A stretch of DNA of 47,355 nt. Source: Limisphaerales bacterium (lineage in GTDB: Bacteria; Verrucomicrobiota; Verrucomicrobiia; Limisphaerales; SXTU01). The notes under the pieces were generated by a model, which was not told where the DNA came from, did no database searches, and saw nothing but the letters and a program-made list of their open reading frames with translations. The DNA lies in the NCBI GenBank assembly GCA_009773355.1, contig WRPG01000040.1:1-47355 (forward strand), read 5' to 3'. Shown here one piece after another: positions 23,347-28,957 of this stretch (its first letter is position 1; each line of letters opens with the position of its first letter). The position numbers were made by a program, and so were the translations under genes.

Positions 23347-24087
23347 TCACCACCAGCCGTTGGCGACGTCGGGCGGGGGCGTGTTCGGTGTCGCTGTTCC
23401 GTAAGTCTCGTAGAGAGTCGGAAACTTAAAGAAATCGGAGTGGCCATCCGCAAAGAACAGGGGCACCCGCCGGTCTCCCAGATAGTTGTGCCATTGCGTG
23501 GGCAGCGCGAGCGTGTTGCGGTCCCGGTGCCAGATGTAGTCGCCGAAGATGAGCTTGGTCGTGGGCGAGGCGGCGAAGGCGGCCTCACGGCTGGGCGAGG
23601 TCGCGCCCGCGCCATTCACCGTGCTGCCGGTCACATGCAGCGTCTGGTAGCGGTCCGTGTTCCACTGCACCGAGTAGCTCGAACCGTAGCCCTCGTAGCA
23701 GTTCTTGATCGCGGGCCAGACGGCGTCGCCCGCGTCCGACGGGCAGCGAAACGTCTTGGCATCGCCCACGTAGCGGTTCAGCACGCGTTTCGCCTCTGGA
23801 AACGTCGCCAAGGGATTCGGCGGCGCTGAGGTGCCGGCCTTGCCGACCCAGTCGTTCCAGGAGCTGTGCAGCGGGTATTTGTCGTCGAAATCCCCCACAT
23901 AGACCTTGAACGCCAGACCGATCTGCTTGGTGTTGTTGACGCACTGGATCTGCTTGGCCTTGCCCTTGGCCTTGGACAGCGCGGGCAGTAGCATCCCGGC
24001 GAGGATCGCGATGATGGCGATGACCACGAGCAGTTCGATGAGGGTAAAGGCGCATGCGCGCCACGGGCCGGAGGAGGGGAATCGCAT
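23347..24087 (-). CDS. type II secretion-like pseudopilin (H-X9-DG family), second of a tandem pair
   Basis: 246 residues from ATG 24087. A short basic leader precedes the prepilin helix [18 protein letters not shown] (cleavage before the Phe, with Glu at +5). The C-terminal part has [11 protein letters not shown] and [14 protein letters not shown], the DGH signature of the H-X9-DG group, and ends near DVANGWW. Such proteins are processed by prepilin peptidase and are greatly expanded in Verrucomicrobia and Planctomycetes; their cargo or role is unknown. The gene starts 23 bp after the first pseudopilin. Confidence 0.9.
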
Positions 24088-24110
24088 AAATGGCGACGCC
24101 GACACGCAAC

Positions 24111-24872
24111 TCACCAGAAGCCATTGGCCGGGTCGGGAGCCGGCGAGCCGTTCGCCCAGGTGAACCAGATGGCGGGAAACTTGAAGAACTCGGCGTGGCC
24201 GTCGCCAAACAGCGTCATCGTGCGCTTCTCCGCCGCGTAGTTGTGCCATTGGTTCTTTTTCACAGTCACGCCGCGATCCCGGTGCCAAATCCAGTCCGCC
24301 AAGACGAACTTGGTGGCCGCTTGGGTCATCTCCACCTCGTTCATCGGCTTGTTGTTCGCCATGTTGGAGCCGGTGACGCGCTGGATTTGCATGCGGGTGG
24401 ACCATTGATCGGAGTAGCTATTACCCCAGGCGAAATAGCAGTTCTCAACGGCCGGCGTCGCCTGCGGCGGATCCCAGCGGGCGTCGCCATTGTCGGACGG
24501 GCAGCGGAAGGTCTCGACCTTGCCGACGTAGCGGTTGAAGACGCGGTTGGTGGCGTCGGTCTTGCCCCCCTCCAAGCCATTGACCGTGTTGTTGGGTGCC
24601 CCGGAGTGCTGGCCGGTGGCTCCCCCCAGATTACCCCAACCACTGTGGATGGGGAAAAAGCCGTTGAAGTCGTCCATGTAAACTTTGAACCCAATGCCGA
24701 GCTGCTTGACGTTGTTGGTGCAGGCGGCCTGCTTGCCCTTGAGCTTCGCCTTCGACAGCGCGGGCAGCAGCATACCGGCGAGGATCGCGATGATGGCGAT
24801 GACCACGAGCAGTTCGATGAGGGTGAACGCGCCGGACGTGCGCCAGTCGGAGGGAGGGCGGCTTGAGTGCAT
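24111..24872 (-). CDS. type II secretion-like pseudopilin (H-X9-DG family), first of a tandem pair
   Basis: 253 residues from ATG 24872. The leader ends just before [18 protein letters not shown], which is identical in its neighbour. Shared downstream blocks are [23 protein letters not shown] and [13 protein letters not shown], with the end DPANGFW. Helix and DGH blocks agree closely while the middle parts differ, so this is a tandem duplication that has diverged. The start lies about 100 bp from the divergent ThiF-like gene. Confidence 0.9.
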
Positions 24873-24974
24873 GGCTGGTTAGGGCTTGGTAGGATTGGTA
24901 GCAGCATTGCCGGGTTCGCGCAAGGGGCACATCGCCAGCTTGCGGAGGCATCGCCAGAATCCCAAACTCGCCGC

Positions 24975-25739
24975 ATGAACTTGCCCGAACTCACCGCCGG
25001 GGAGCGCGCCATCTACGAATGGCAGATGTGGCTGCCGGGCTTCGGTGAAGCAGCGCAACGGAAGCTCAAGGGCGCGTCCGTCCTCATCTCGCGCGTGGGT
25101 GGCCTGGGCGGCAATGTGGCGTATCAACTCGCCGCCGCGGGCGTGGGCCGGCTCGTGCTGGCGCATGGCGGCAACCTGCGCCACAGCGACCTCAACCGCC
25201 AGTTGCTCCAGACCCACGACCATCTCGGCCGGCCGCGCATGGAGAGCATCGTGCGCCGGCTGCACGACTTGAACCCGCACCTCGCCATCACCGCCGTCGC
25301 CGAGAACATCTCGGACGCCAACGCCGCCGGCCTCGTCGCGCAGGCGGACGTGGCGGTGGACGCCGCGCCGATGTTCGACGAGCGCCTCGCTCTGAACCGC
25401 GCCGCCGTCGCCGCGCGCAAGCCGATGGTCGAGTGCGCCGTGTATGCCTTCGAGGCGCACGTCACCACGTTCATCCCGGGCCGCACCGGCTGCCTGCAAT
25501 GCCTCGTGCCGGAGATTCCCCCGGACTGGAAGCGCTGTTTCCCCGTGCTCGGCGCGGTGAGCGGCACGGCGGGCTGCCTCGGCGCGGTCGAGGTGGTGAA
25601 GCTGCTCACCGGCCTCGGCGAACCGCTCGCCGGCACACGGCTGGTGATGGACTTGGGGACGATGGAATTCCGCCGGCTGAAGCTCGCGCGGCGCGCGGAC
25701 TGTCCGGTGTGCGCCAACGCCCGTGCCGGCGACTTGTAG
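24975..25739 (+). CDS. ThiF/MoeB/HesA-family E1-like protein with altered ATP site
   Basis: 254 residues from ATG 24975. The Rossmann loop is RVGGLGGNVAYQLAAAG and the arginine finger is in DLNRQLL. Zinc cysteine pairs are CLQC and CPVC. The block KRCFPVLGAVSGTAGCLGAV matches the MoeB/ThiF active-cysteine region. Two acidic ATP/Mg sites usual in the family are absent: the DFD-type ribose site reads AHGG, and the TDN site reads APM (VDAAPMFDER). Nearby molybdate-type transport genes suggest a link to molybdopterin sulfur transfer, but adenylation may be lost. The last codons and the stop fall inside a palindromic repeat. Confidence 0.82.
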   Translation: MNLPELTAGERAIYEWQMWLPGFGEAAQRKLKGASVLISRVGGLGGNVAYQLAAAGVGRLVLAHGGNLRHSDLNRQLLQTHDHLGRPRMESIVRRLHDLNPHLAITAVAENISDANAAGLVAQADVAVDAAPMFDERLALNRAAVAARKPMVECAVYAFEAHVTTFIPGRTGCLQCLVPEIPPDWKRCFPVLGAVSGTAGCLGAVEVVKLLTGLGEPLAGTRLVMDLGTMEFRRLKLARRADCPVCANARAGDL

Positions 25740-25813: not shown

Positions 25814-26629
25814 TCACGGCTTCGCGTTCAGGAACACATCCAGCACCGTGCGCGCGTGCTTCGCGGAACGGTGCAGCGCGCCGTGGCCCTCCTGCGGGTC
25901 TTCGATGGCCGTCACGACGGTCGCGCCCTGCTCCTTGAGCCACGCCGCCGCGCGCCTCATGCCGGGGATGCCGTCGCGGTCGGGGTTCGGGTCGCGCCCG
26001 CCGGCCACGGTGATCCAGCGCGTGCCTTGCAGCGGACGCGGGCCGAACGCGCCGTTCACAATCGCCCGCGTGGGCGGGTAATCGAGGCCCACGCCGCCGG
26101 AGTTCGCCACCGCGAGCGAGAAGTAACGCCGGCCGCGCCCGGCATCCAGCGCGGCCACGGCATAGGAGTTCGCCGAGCCGCGGCTGAAGCCGTGCAGCAT
26201 CGCGGTGCCCGACTGGACGCCGAGCTTTTGCAGCGCGGCGTCAATCTCCCGGTAGAGCTGCTGCGGCGCGTAATAGGCGTCCGTCCGGTCGCCCGCGCCC
26301 AGCCACCACTGCACGCACACCAGGCCCACCTCGCGGCCCTTCACGTGCGGATGCCAGAGCGCGAGGTCGTCCGTGGCGAAGCCCTGCGTGCCGTGCAGCG
26401 ACACGATCCAGCGCTTCGGCTCCGGCACCGCGCGCCACACCACGAGGAAGCTCTGCCCGTCCGAAGTGGGCACAAAGTCCGGCTTGAGCTTCGCGGCATC
26501 GGCGAACCAACGACCGCCCTGGGCCTTGCGGAACAACTCCGCCGCACGACCCGTCAGTGCCGGCTCGGCGGCAGCGGCGGAAAGGTGGAGGCAAGTGAAG
26601 GCGATGAGCAACGGGATGAGTTTCTTCAT
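25814..26629 (-). CDS. secreted alpha/beta-hydrolase-like protein
   Basis: 271 residues with a signal peptide ending near LSAAAAEP. The nucleophile elbow GFSRG lies around residue 146 (MLHGFSRGSANSYAVAAL). An early strand WIVSLHGTQGF supplies the oxyanion region, and EGHGALHRSAKHAR carries the late histidine. The fold is a serine hydrolase of unknown substrate. Its start codon overlaps the stop of the preceding small membrane protein by 4 bp, so it is translated with two short pseudopilin-like proteins. Confidence 0.75.
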   Translation of the reverse strand: MKKLIPLLIAFTCLHLSAAAAEPALTGRAAELFRKAQGGRWFADAAKLKPDFVPTSDGQSFLVVWRAVPEPKRWIVSLHGTQGFATDDLALWHPHVKGREVGLVCVQWWLGAGDRTDAYYAPQQLYREIDAALQKLGVQSGTAMLHGFSRGSANSYAVAALDAGRGRRYFSLAVANSGGVGLDYPPTRAIVNGAFGPRPLQGTRWITVAGGRDPNPDRDGIPGMRRAAAWLKEQGATVVTAIEDPQEGHGALHRSAKHARTVLDVFLNAKP

Positions 26630-26994
26630 AATGTGTGGCCGGGAACGGAGCAGCGCGGTATGTCCATGACATCCTTGCCAGGCGAGTAGCGGCCACCGAG
26701 CGGACAGACTGGTAGCACGGAGCCGCGATGGTATAAGAGGTAGTAGGTATCAGTCAGCGAGTAGGTGTCCGTTGCCGCTTTCGACTTTTCCAGCGCCCAC
26801 TGCTGCACAGCGCCGTCAATCTGCTTGAGGTAGAAGATGCAGCGCCCGCGCGGAGTCTCCGAACGTGTTCTAACAAAAACTTTTGGAACAAGAAGGACAC
26901 CGCCTAGTAGCACCAGCAAGACAGCCAGCCAGAACTGCCAGCCGATGACCGACTTGGCGGGTTCCGTGTTGTCCTGGTTTTCCGTGGTGCTCAT
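26626..26994 (-). CDS. short membrane-anchored protein with C-terminal CSVPGH motif
   Basis: 122 residues from ATG 26994. A polar N-terminus is followed by one helix (WQFWLAVLLVLLGGVLLVP). An exported domain follows: RCIFYLKQIDGAVQQWALEK, LPVCPLGGRYSPGK and IPRCSVPGHTL. This layout resembles the globular part of verrucomicrobial pseudopilins but lacks the FTLIE leader. It overlaps both its neighbours by 4 bp (ATGA). It is paralogous to the gene upstream. Confidence 0.75.
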   Translation of the reverse strand: MSTTENQDNTEPAKSVIGWQFWLAVLLVLLGGVLLVPKVFVRTRSETPRGRCIFYLKQIDGAVQQWALEKSKAATDTYSLTDTYYLLYHRGSVLPVCPLGGRYSPGKDVMDIPRCSVPGHTL

Positions 26995-27365
26995 TTGTGA
27001 ACCACATGGCCGGGGATGGAGCAAGTGGGCAGCTCGCCGACCGTGCGCGGGAGCTGGTAGCTGCCATCTCCCGGGCAGGTCGGGAGCCGGGAGCCTTTGA
27101 AGTAGGACAGCACCTCGGCCTCCACGATCATGTCACCGGCCACTCGCTGATGCTCAACGGCCCAGCGCTGGACTGCGGCTCGCATCTGCTCAAGATCGGC
27201 TGCGCACTCTCTCCGCCTTCCAGGGCTGTTTTTCGTTTCAGCCTCATAACTGTCGGCGAACCAAATGCCCAAGACCAGCAGGGTAAGCCATACTTGCGGC
27301 ATCGCCGCAATCGGCATCACCTCATCAAACCAATTGCCTGTCTTTCGTTTCGACCCGTTCTTCAT
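26991..27365 (-). CDS. short membrane-anchored protein with C-terminal CSIPGH motif
   Basis: 124 residues. The basic N-terminus (MKNGSKRKTG) is followed by a hydrophobic helix (about residues 24-38). Then come RECAADLEQMRAAVQRWAVE, LPTCPGDGSYQLPRT and LPTCSIPGHVVHK. The C-terminal CP-x-G-x-Y ... CS-x-PGH pattern is shared with its downstream paralogue. Four cysteines in the exported part may form disulfides. It is the first gene of a three-gene unit with 4-bp overlaps. It ends one base from a decayed oxidoreductase fragment on the same strand. Confidence 0.75.
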   Translation of the reverse strand: MKNGSKRKTGNWFDEVMPIAAMPQVWLTLLVLGIWFADSYEAETKNSPGRRRECAADLEQMRAAVQRWAVEHQRVAGDMIVEAEVLSYFKGSRLPTCPGDGSYQLPRTVGELPTCSIPGHVVHK

Positions 27366-27613
27366 CTACACCTTGTTCCATGGCCCACGGTTCTCGCGGC
27401 TGCGGAGTTTGCTCGCCTCGTTGTCCCCGATGAATTCCTCCTTCGCGGAGTTCCAATTGAGCGGGCGGCGCAGCCAATAGCCGATGTTTCCGAGCTGGCA
27501 GACGGCAGCCGTGCGTGCGCCGATGGCCACACGTCGGCCACGGGCTTCTGCCGCGACTTGATGCAATCCACCCAGTTCTGCTTGTGGCGGCGCAGGTAGA
27601 GACGGTGGCTCAT
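27366..27613 (-). pseudogene. C-terminal remnant of a Gfo/Idh/MocA oxidoreductase, frameshifted
   Basis: On the minus strand from 27613 one frame reads RRHKQNWVDCIKSRQKPVAD. From about 27528 the matching sequence continues two bases out of phase: AIGARTAAVCQLGNIGYWL, then LNWNSAKEEFIGDNEAS and GPWNKV-stop. The same blocks (FLDCIKTGARPNADV, LGNIATRL, FDSAKEQFIGDAEAN) end the intact oxidoreductase at 29197-30516. The shift fits a dinucleotide duplication (CACAC at 27528-27532 on the plus strand). The first three quarters of the gene are gone. Confidence 0.88.
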
Positions 27614-27688: not shown

Positions 27689-28957
27689 ATGAAAGCTCTG
27701 CCCGCCCTGCTCCTCGCCCTTTGCGCACTGCCCGCCCTCGCCGAGAACTGGCCCGGCTGGCGCGGCCCGCGCGGCGACGGCACCAGCCTGGAGAAGAACG
27801 TCCCGGTGAAATGGAGCGGCACGGAGAACGTGCTGTGGAAGACGCCGCTCGCCGGCGGCCACGCCTCGGCCATCACCTGGGGCGACCGCCTGTTCACCGT
27901 CGGCGCGGTCGCGGAGACCGAAGGCCGCAACCTCATCTGCCTCGACAAGCGGAGCGGCAAAGTTCTCTGGGAGCAGGTGGTCGTGAAGTCGCCGCTCGAA
28001 AAGAAGCACCGCGAGAACAGCCACGCCTCCAGCACGCCCGCCACGGATGGCAAGCTGGTCTATGTCGCGTTCCTCGACGTGCAGGACATGGTCGTGGCGG
28101 CGTATGACTTCAGCGGCAAGCAGCAGTGGCTCGCCCGGCCCGGCGTCTTCAAGAGCGTCCACGGCTTCTGCACCTCGCCCATTCTGCACAACGACAAGGT
28201 CATCGTGAACGGCGACCACGACGGCGAGAGCTACCTCGCCGCGCTCGACAAGGCCACGGGCAAGACGCTCTGGAAAGTCCCGCGCGCGAACAAGACCCGC
28301 AGCTATTGCGCGCCGCTCATCCGCCAGCTCTCGGGCCGCACGCAGATGATCCTCGCGGGCGACAAGTCCACCGCCAGCTACGATCCCGACACCGGCAAGC
28401 TGCACTGGTATTTCAAAGGCCCGACCGAGCAATACGTCGCCTCGCTCGTCTATAACGAGAAGGCCGACCTGCTTTTCCTGACCGCCGGCTTCCCGCAGCA
28501 TCACCTGCTCGGCCTGCGCCACAACGGCAGCGGCGACCTCGGCGACATCTATCACCACGCGGAGATCACGCACCCGCAGGTCGCCTGGCATCACACGAAG
28601 GCCAGCATGGTCTCCTACGTGCCCTCGCCCATCAGCGAAGGCGATTACTTCCTAGTCGTCGGCGACCAGGGCCACGCGAACTGCCTCGTCGCGAAGACCG
28701 GCGAGCCGCTCTGGTCGGAGAAGATTGGCCGCAGCCACGCCTCGCTCGTGTCCGCGAACGGGCTGGTCTATTTCCTCAACGACGACGGCGTGGCCTACGT
28801 GGTGAAGCCCGGCAAGACCTTCGAGCTGGTCGCGAAGAACGAACTGGGCGAGCCGACCTACGCCTCGCCCGTCATCAGCGACGGCCGGCTCTACCTGCGC
28901 GGCGACAAGCACCTCTTCTGCATCGGCACCGGCGCGGCGAAGACGGCGGCGCGGTAA
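27689..28957 (+). CDS. secreted PQQ-like beta-propeller protein (BamB-like)
   Basis: 422 residues from ATG 27689, with a signal peptide ending ALPALA. Repeats with the propeller blade pattern are visible: GPRGDGTS, LICLDKRSGKVLWEQVV, YLAALDKATGKTLWKV, YDPDTGKLHWYF and VAKTGEPLWSEKI. WNWPGWRGPRG-like starts (here NWPGWRGPRGDG) are typical of a planctomycete/verrucomicrobial group annotated as PQQ-binding-like. No dehydrogenase active-site residues are apparent, so it may be a scaffold rather than an enzyme. Confidence 0.9.
   Translation: MKALPALLLALCALPALAENWPGWRGPRGDGTSLEKNVPVKWSGTENVLWKTPLAGGHASAITWGDRLFTVGAVAETEGRNLICLDKRSGKVLWEQVVVKSPLEKKHRENSHASSTPATDGKLVYVAFLDVQDMVVAAYDFSGKQQWLARPGVFKSVHGFCTSPILHNDKVIVNGDHDGESYLAALDKATGKTLWKVPRANKTRSYCAPLIRQLSGRTQMILAGDKSTASYDPDTGKLHWYFKGPTEQYVASLVYNEKADLLFLTAGFPQHHLLGLRHNGSGDLGDIYHHAEITHPQVAWHHTKASMVSYVPSPISEGDYFLVVGDQGHANCLVAKTGEPLWSEKIGRSHASLVSANGLVYFLNDDGVAYVVKPGKTFELVAKNELGEPTYASPVISDGRLYLRGDKHLFCIGTGAAKTAAR

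Follow-up and report, generated by a model that had tools for sequence, protein, structure and literature searches.

What do the three genes of this minus-strand array encode, and do their products belong together? In the window, the whole 47,355-nt stretch of Limisphaerales DNA analysed here, g1 (26991–27365, 124 aa), g2 (26626–26994, 122 aa) and g3 (25814–26629, 271 aa) follow one another on the minus strand, with bases 26991–26994 common to g1 and g2 and bases 26626–26629 common to g2 and g3 (4 bp each), which confirms the coordinates and overlaps reported in an earlier note on this DNA. The length of g2 is counted from its ATG; an alternative TTG at 27024 gives 132 aa. As that note had also described, g1 and g2 each carry one hydrophobic, N-terminal helix (top 19-residue hydropathy windows of 1.87 and 2.64, respectively) and a common C-terminal motif, and their likeness is beyond chance, at 39% identity over 74 aa (E 1.8e-13). 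The shared motif is present, with a different spacing from the CP-x-G-x-Y first proposed: CP-x-x-G-x-Y (CPGDGSY in g1, CPLGGRY in g2) is one residue longer, and is followed by CS-x-PGH (CSIPGH and CSVPGH).

We find that both proteins are homologous to pseudopilins. A search of their own genome (6.16 Mb in 162 contigs, 95% complete) with g2 returns nine places, g1 and g2 themselves included, and g2 is 54% identical (E 1.2e-27) to a leader-bearing GFTLVE pseudopilin on contig C77, with g1 showing pseudopilin homology at 38% (E 4.3e-17); here and below, C labels contigs of this genome, G genomes and L fetched loci. The C77 pair and a match on C123, the latter with an E of only 0.0022, have the prepilin start GFTLVEIMIVVA. 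The same head is carried by the C77 pair, C46 and C115, and on C90 it terminates a coiled-coil stretch without a leader. In the leader-bearing copies the head reads CIANLKQIDGAVQQWALE...CPGGGTY...C...GHTL. An alignment of 12 members of our own choosing runs through the helix, with the three head cysteines, CP, G, Y, P and GH invariant, and the leaderless L034 retains P-N-F; two relatives from the same genomic place as g1 and g2, those of G004 and G005, lack a leader yet still have VPNFIKARAT/LPNFIKARAT and, judged by sequence, look like intermediates. Homology to the leader-bearing copies of the own genome, together with these intermediate-like relatives, indicates that g1 and g2 derive from pseudopilins and are more than pilin-like in look, so that the earlier suggestion of pseudopilin heads without a prepilin leader is borne out by homology, beyond the motif.

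Other pseudopilin-like sequences of this genome deserve mention. Two further pseudopilin-like genes lie in the window, at 23347–24405 and 24111–24872 (minus strand), and 24111–24872, the one of the two that was run against Pfam and NCBIfam, matches N_methyl and DUF1559. On C46 and C115 (L011 and L012) the likeness of the pseudopilin copies to C77 begins at GTC|GCCATCATCGGC, the DNA upstream being different, and these junctions are either recombination or assembly joins; in L011, the frame upstream of the head reads like an enolase C-terminus.

The major type II pseudopilin GspG/PulG and the type IV pilins share with g1 and g2 a homologous hydrophobic helix and small head, but unlike GspG/PulG, g1 and g2 have neither a leader peptide nor Glu5. 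A class III signal peptide, i.e., a leader ending in Gly or Ala before the hydrophobic tract, is absent from g1, g2 and their upstream frames; the g1 ATG comes directly after a stop with no in-frame prepilin leader upstream, no leader is seen in the upstream frame of g2, and when both are aligned with GFTLVE, neither has an E where the hydrophobic tract begins. Neither protein has a Pfam match or a relevant NCBIfam match, none in NCBIfam being above cut-off, and GspG (TIGR01710) gives no match at E≤1. An AlphaFold2 model of g1 (pLDDT 80, pTM 0.58) consists of a long helix and a small head. Foldseek with this model returns no pilin and nothing at E≤0.001, and VIA alignment against nine chains, all at Z below 8, places the type IV pilin PilJ (Z 6.9) and an Xcp type II secretion pseudopilus chain (Z 5.6) on top, with a third pilin at Z 2.9 and an RNA polymerase chain at Z 2.0; the modelled fold likeness to pilins is suggestive only. 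Pilin assembly needs Glu5 and a cleavage site, and g1 and g2 have neither, which makes it improbable that they are unconventional minor pseudopilins built into a filament as cap or initiator without leader processing, an idea prompted by the homology of helix and head and by the leader-bearing copies in the own genome. We favor, with moderate confidence, a reading in which g1 and g2 are pilin heads that stand alone, do not polymerise and are held by an uncleaved membrane helix, in a repeatedly refilled place to which g3 has recently been added.

That place is recognizable across the genus. Upstream of g1, at 27366–27586 on the minus strand, lies a remnant of the C-terminus of a Gfo/Idh/MocA oxidoreductase gene, with a stop that abuts the g1 ATG; by tblastn it corresponds, in two frames, to residues 361–379 and 379–432 of the full-length gene of G002, and it matches PF19051 below the family cut-off (E 2.8e-4). 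Beyond it a divergent PQQ-like beta-propeller gene (PQQ_2; 27689–28957, plus strand) serves as a syntenic anchor, and the opposite flank is a convergent ThiF-family ORF (24867–25739, plus strand). Full-length Gfo/Idh is found in six of 11 genus genomes (G002, G003, G004, G005, G008 and G010; E≤1e-150), and all six have a leaderless head downstream, the own remnant making a seventh locus. In five of these six the head is directly behind the Gfo/Idh gene, with stop and start overlapping or within ~12 bp. The exception is G005, where DUF6883 and DUF4926 genes are inserted between Gfo/Idh and head (L126, 1341–2053); on either side of them stands a copy of ~47 bp of the Gfo/Idh 3′ end, in direct orientation, the two copies differing at one position and lying 669 bp from each other. 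Around the own array no second copy of the Gfo/Idh tail is found with up to six mismatches allowed, the window holding one copy; an exact tail pattern, which would miss both the altered own copy and the second copy in G005, matches once in each of the six genomes with the gene. G006 and G007 have the PQQ gene without an adjoining Gfo/Idh match or head, and neither PQQ nor Gfo/Idh is matched in G001 and G009 at the thresholds used. In G003 and G004 the head adjoins the convergent ThiF gene, but in the own genome g3 does so, indicating that g3 and one head are extra here.

The occupants of this place are far more diverged than the gene before them. The eight slot heads are 20–67% identical at the protein level, compared with 86–93% for Gfo/Idh, and by the Nei-Gojobori method head dS, which rests on ~110 diverged codons and is considerably noisy, reaches 0.77 or more, or saturation, in 27 of the 28 pairs (g1 with g2 is the one pair within a genome; of the 27 pairs that compare genomes, 26 reach it). 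Gfo/Idh dS is 0.36–0.55 in all 15 pairs, and the tail of the own remnant (54 codons) gives 0.39–0.62 against the six full-length genes. Values for the flanking genes are 0.57–0.74 for ThiF (three pairs) and 0.28–0.57 for PQQ among the own genome, G002, G003, G004 and G008, rising to as much as 0.71 for these five against G007 and to as much as 1.04 in pairs with G006. For the leader-bearing pseudopilins found in the genus, whose orthology is uncertain, dS is 0.55–1.76 and dN/dS 0.03–0.34. Because low identity and a synonymous divergence above that of Gfo/Idh mark the occupants as mostly non-orthologous, the slot seems to have been refilled, and on these sequence comparisons replacement of the heads fits better than relaxed drift. 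Recent gene conversion from paralogues was considered and is not visible: the best six matches of g2, besides g2 itself, among 159 distinct head frames in the fetched loci are 45–66% identical.

Are these heads maintained, or are they debris, duplicated pseudopilins that lost the leader, have no function and are heading for loss? Internal stops interrupt the slot heads of G004 and G008, G008 has in addition a stretch that by eye resembles the start of a second head, and the only orthologous-looking head pair, g1 and the broken G008 copy (dS 0.36), has a dN/dS of 0.68; some slot heads may therefore be decaying, and in the own genome the adjoining Gfo/Idh is itself a remnant. In the other six of the eight the frame is intact and the three cysteines, CP and GH are retained, with F replacing Y in G005; we take this as moderate evidence for selection and not more, since 6–25% of such ORFs, varying with gene and distance, stay open in a neutral simulation without indels. 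Leaderless heads with an anchor and a coiled coil also recur, in 29 of 154 classified heads, as described below. Weighing these points, we regard debris as the main rival explanation and a real, if distinctly lesser, possibility.

The constant neighbor suggests another explanation, that the leaderless heads act with the upstream Gfo/Idh oxidoreductase, for example as its envelope anchor, with g3 irrelevant. Full-length genus Gfo/Idh proteins bear an N-terminal RRSFL stretch that suggests Tat export, and the invariable downstream head, with stop and start so close in five of six loci, fits such a partnership. The own genome, however, has lost the gene here and has kept two intact heads, with Gfo/Idh copies of 50–52% identity elsewhere in this genome and in G007 (50% in the own genome), two of the six heads behind full-length genes are broken, and the heads are too variable for a fixed partner. 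Outside the genus, 24 loci were examined (51 Gfo/Idh matches, 30 with a locus, six of these in the genus), and one has a leaderless head in flanks of up to 1.5 kb: L207, from another family, in which a Gfo/Idh 57% identical is followed by a head whose last cysteine is missing. Among homologues outside the genus, the nearest three show no head in flanks of the same extent, and other short-anchor leaderless heads sit behind enolase, DEAD-box helicase, sulfatase and DUF1501 genes. We consider this partnership unlikely.

g3 begins with a hydrophobic stretch that by eye is signal-like, and resembles the esterases of the alpha/beta hydrolase fold. Its AlphaFold2 model (pLDDT 78, pTM 0.79) gives 188 Foldseek matches in the PDB at E≤0.001, to esterases and DPP4-type peptidases, with a best E of 1.5e-5, and S149 (in GFSRG, a GxSxG nucleophile motif), D213 and H249 are invariant in all five aligned homologues and, on the strength of the alignment, form a plausible putative catalytic set. 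Unlike those esterases, g3 falls in no Pfam or NCBIfam family at cut-off, and phmmer against PDB sequences finds nothing at E≤0.1.

The earlier note had read the tight coupling as a sign that the two heads and the hydrolase form a membrane complex, and this is not borne out. Homologues of g3 are found in two of 97 relatives (E≤1e-5), in three of 320 genomes of the order and in three of 387 of the phylum, the own genome being counted each time and the three sets overlapping. The other four homologues (G007, G131, G548 and G437) have no head gene in ~12 kb around each, and g3 finds no match (E≤1e-5) in any of the six genus genomes that carry a head after Gfo/Idh. Thus, within the scope searched, the pair does not occur with a g3-type hydrolase elsewhere, and for other leaderless heads the neighbors were read at 14 loci. 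The complex has the two 4-bp overlaps of the own genome in its favor; among operon overlaps the 4-bp ATGA type is the most frequent, and its weight as evidence of a complex is small. Because its homologues are rare, lack heads beside them and are absent from genomes with slot heads, g3 is best seen as a recent, lineage-specific, chance-like neighbor rather than a partner, and we think it very unlikely that the three products form a complex.

On the reading that we favor, GspG/PulG-like pseudopilins gave rise to g1 and g2 by loss of leader and Glu5, with the N-terminal helix and cysteine-bearing head kept, as the sequences indicate. With the leader gone, the proteins would be neither cleaved by prepilin peptidase nor polymerised. 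They would insert like any conventional signal anchor and place the head on the outer side of the cytoplasmic membrane, where a CP...CS disulfide would probably close it. Synteny and synonymous divergence suggest that the place behind Gfo/Idh has been refilled repeatedly with different leaderless heads across the genus; in the own lineage, Gfo/Idh would have decayed, two heads would have come to lie in tandem, and an unrelated g3 would have arrived downstream, possibly translated via the ATGA overlap. The most likely role would be that of stand-alone, envelope-anchored heads, e.g., an adaptor or decoy for type II secretion or pilus machinery or for a periplasmic partner.

Leaderless heads are not confined to this place. 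A g1-seeded search has matches in 83 of the 97 relatives and a 12-sequence profile in 179 of the 387 phylum genomes, counts that mix leaderless heads with ordinary pseudopilins. Of the 159 distinct head frames in the fetched loci, a query-seeded, non-random sample in which two own-genome rows (C46 and C115) are possibly assembly joins, five are too short and 154 were classified by script: 82 with a leader, 69 without and three cut, the leaderless ones dividing into 31 with a short anchor, 29 with an anchor and coiled coil and nine others. A tree of the 154 heads requires 22 leader-state changes, compared with a mean of 49.8 and a minimum of 41 in 50 shuffles; built on 73 columns, with 85 of 151 inner branches open, it leaves the number of losses unfixed, and the starred branches force only two.

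The fetched loci also hold unusual arrangements. Stop-to-stop frames of ~520–710 aa that look exported (L196, 1498–3159; L198, 112–1797; L199, 61–1812; L200, 250–1821; also L110, which has no Pfam match, L112 and L132) end C-terminally in a pilin-like helix and the same head, a topology puzzle in that a single helix after an exported domain would leave the head facing the cytoplasm. L045 (1498–2772) encodes a protein of the sigma-70 family (Pfam regions 2 and 4) with a C-terminal hydrophobic stretch, a coiled-coil-like part and a pseudopilin head, and in L095, L103, L108 and L116 a leaderless head lies near the N-terminus, with a longer and mostly hydrophobic part on its C-terminal side. The head of L027 (G059) lies just behind enolase, and L079 and L105, from two different MAGs, share a recurring place behind a helicase gene, with two heads in tandem in L105. 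The head family also occurs in MAG records labelled Akkermansia, Proteobacteria and Klebsiella (L067, L069 and L076), of which the labels of L067 and L069 look wrong.

Automated annotation misses g1 and g2 because no Pfam or NCBIfam model reaches cut-off, and our literature search on pilins in Limisphaerales found nothing. The titles and abstract openings listed for work on pseudopilins in Verrucomicrobia, Lentisphaerae and Planctomycetes, on DUF1559 and on modular pilins contain nothing about leaderless heads. The nearest published cases differ in instructive ways. In the modular pilin PilB of S. sanguinis, going by the part of the report available (PMC8179133), the pilin part bears a leader and comes first, at the N-terminus, and the extra module has been added behind it; the likeness is a pilin part joined to other sequence, but here the leader is missing and the pilin head is C-terminal in most of the fusions seen. 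Verruconatronum alginivorum, also of the Verrucomicrobiota, has expanded PulG-like pseudopilins, with 67 homologues gained by transfer and duplication (PMC13274419); the likeness is many pseudopilin paralogues, and the available part of that report mentions neither leader loss nor a refilled genomic place.

A broader and more speculative reading, to which we give a rather low probability, is that pseudopilin heads, once detached, form a general module of Verrucomicrobiota outside filaments. They would spread as small genes that lodge downstream of unrelated ones, come and go at fixed places and join up with coiled coils, sigma factors and exported proteins, and the product would be an envelope-anchored binding head that signals to, or regulates, secretion or pilus machinery. 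If this were true, the pilin head would be a reusable module beyond filaments, independent of prepilin peptidase and the reverse of the known modular pilins. The refilled place behind Gfo/Idh offers a natural series for testing what such heads do.
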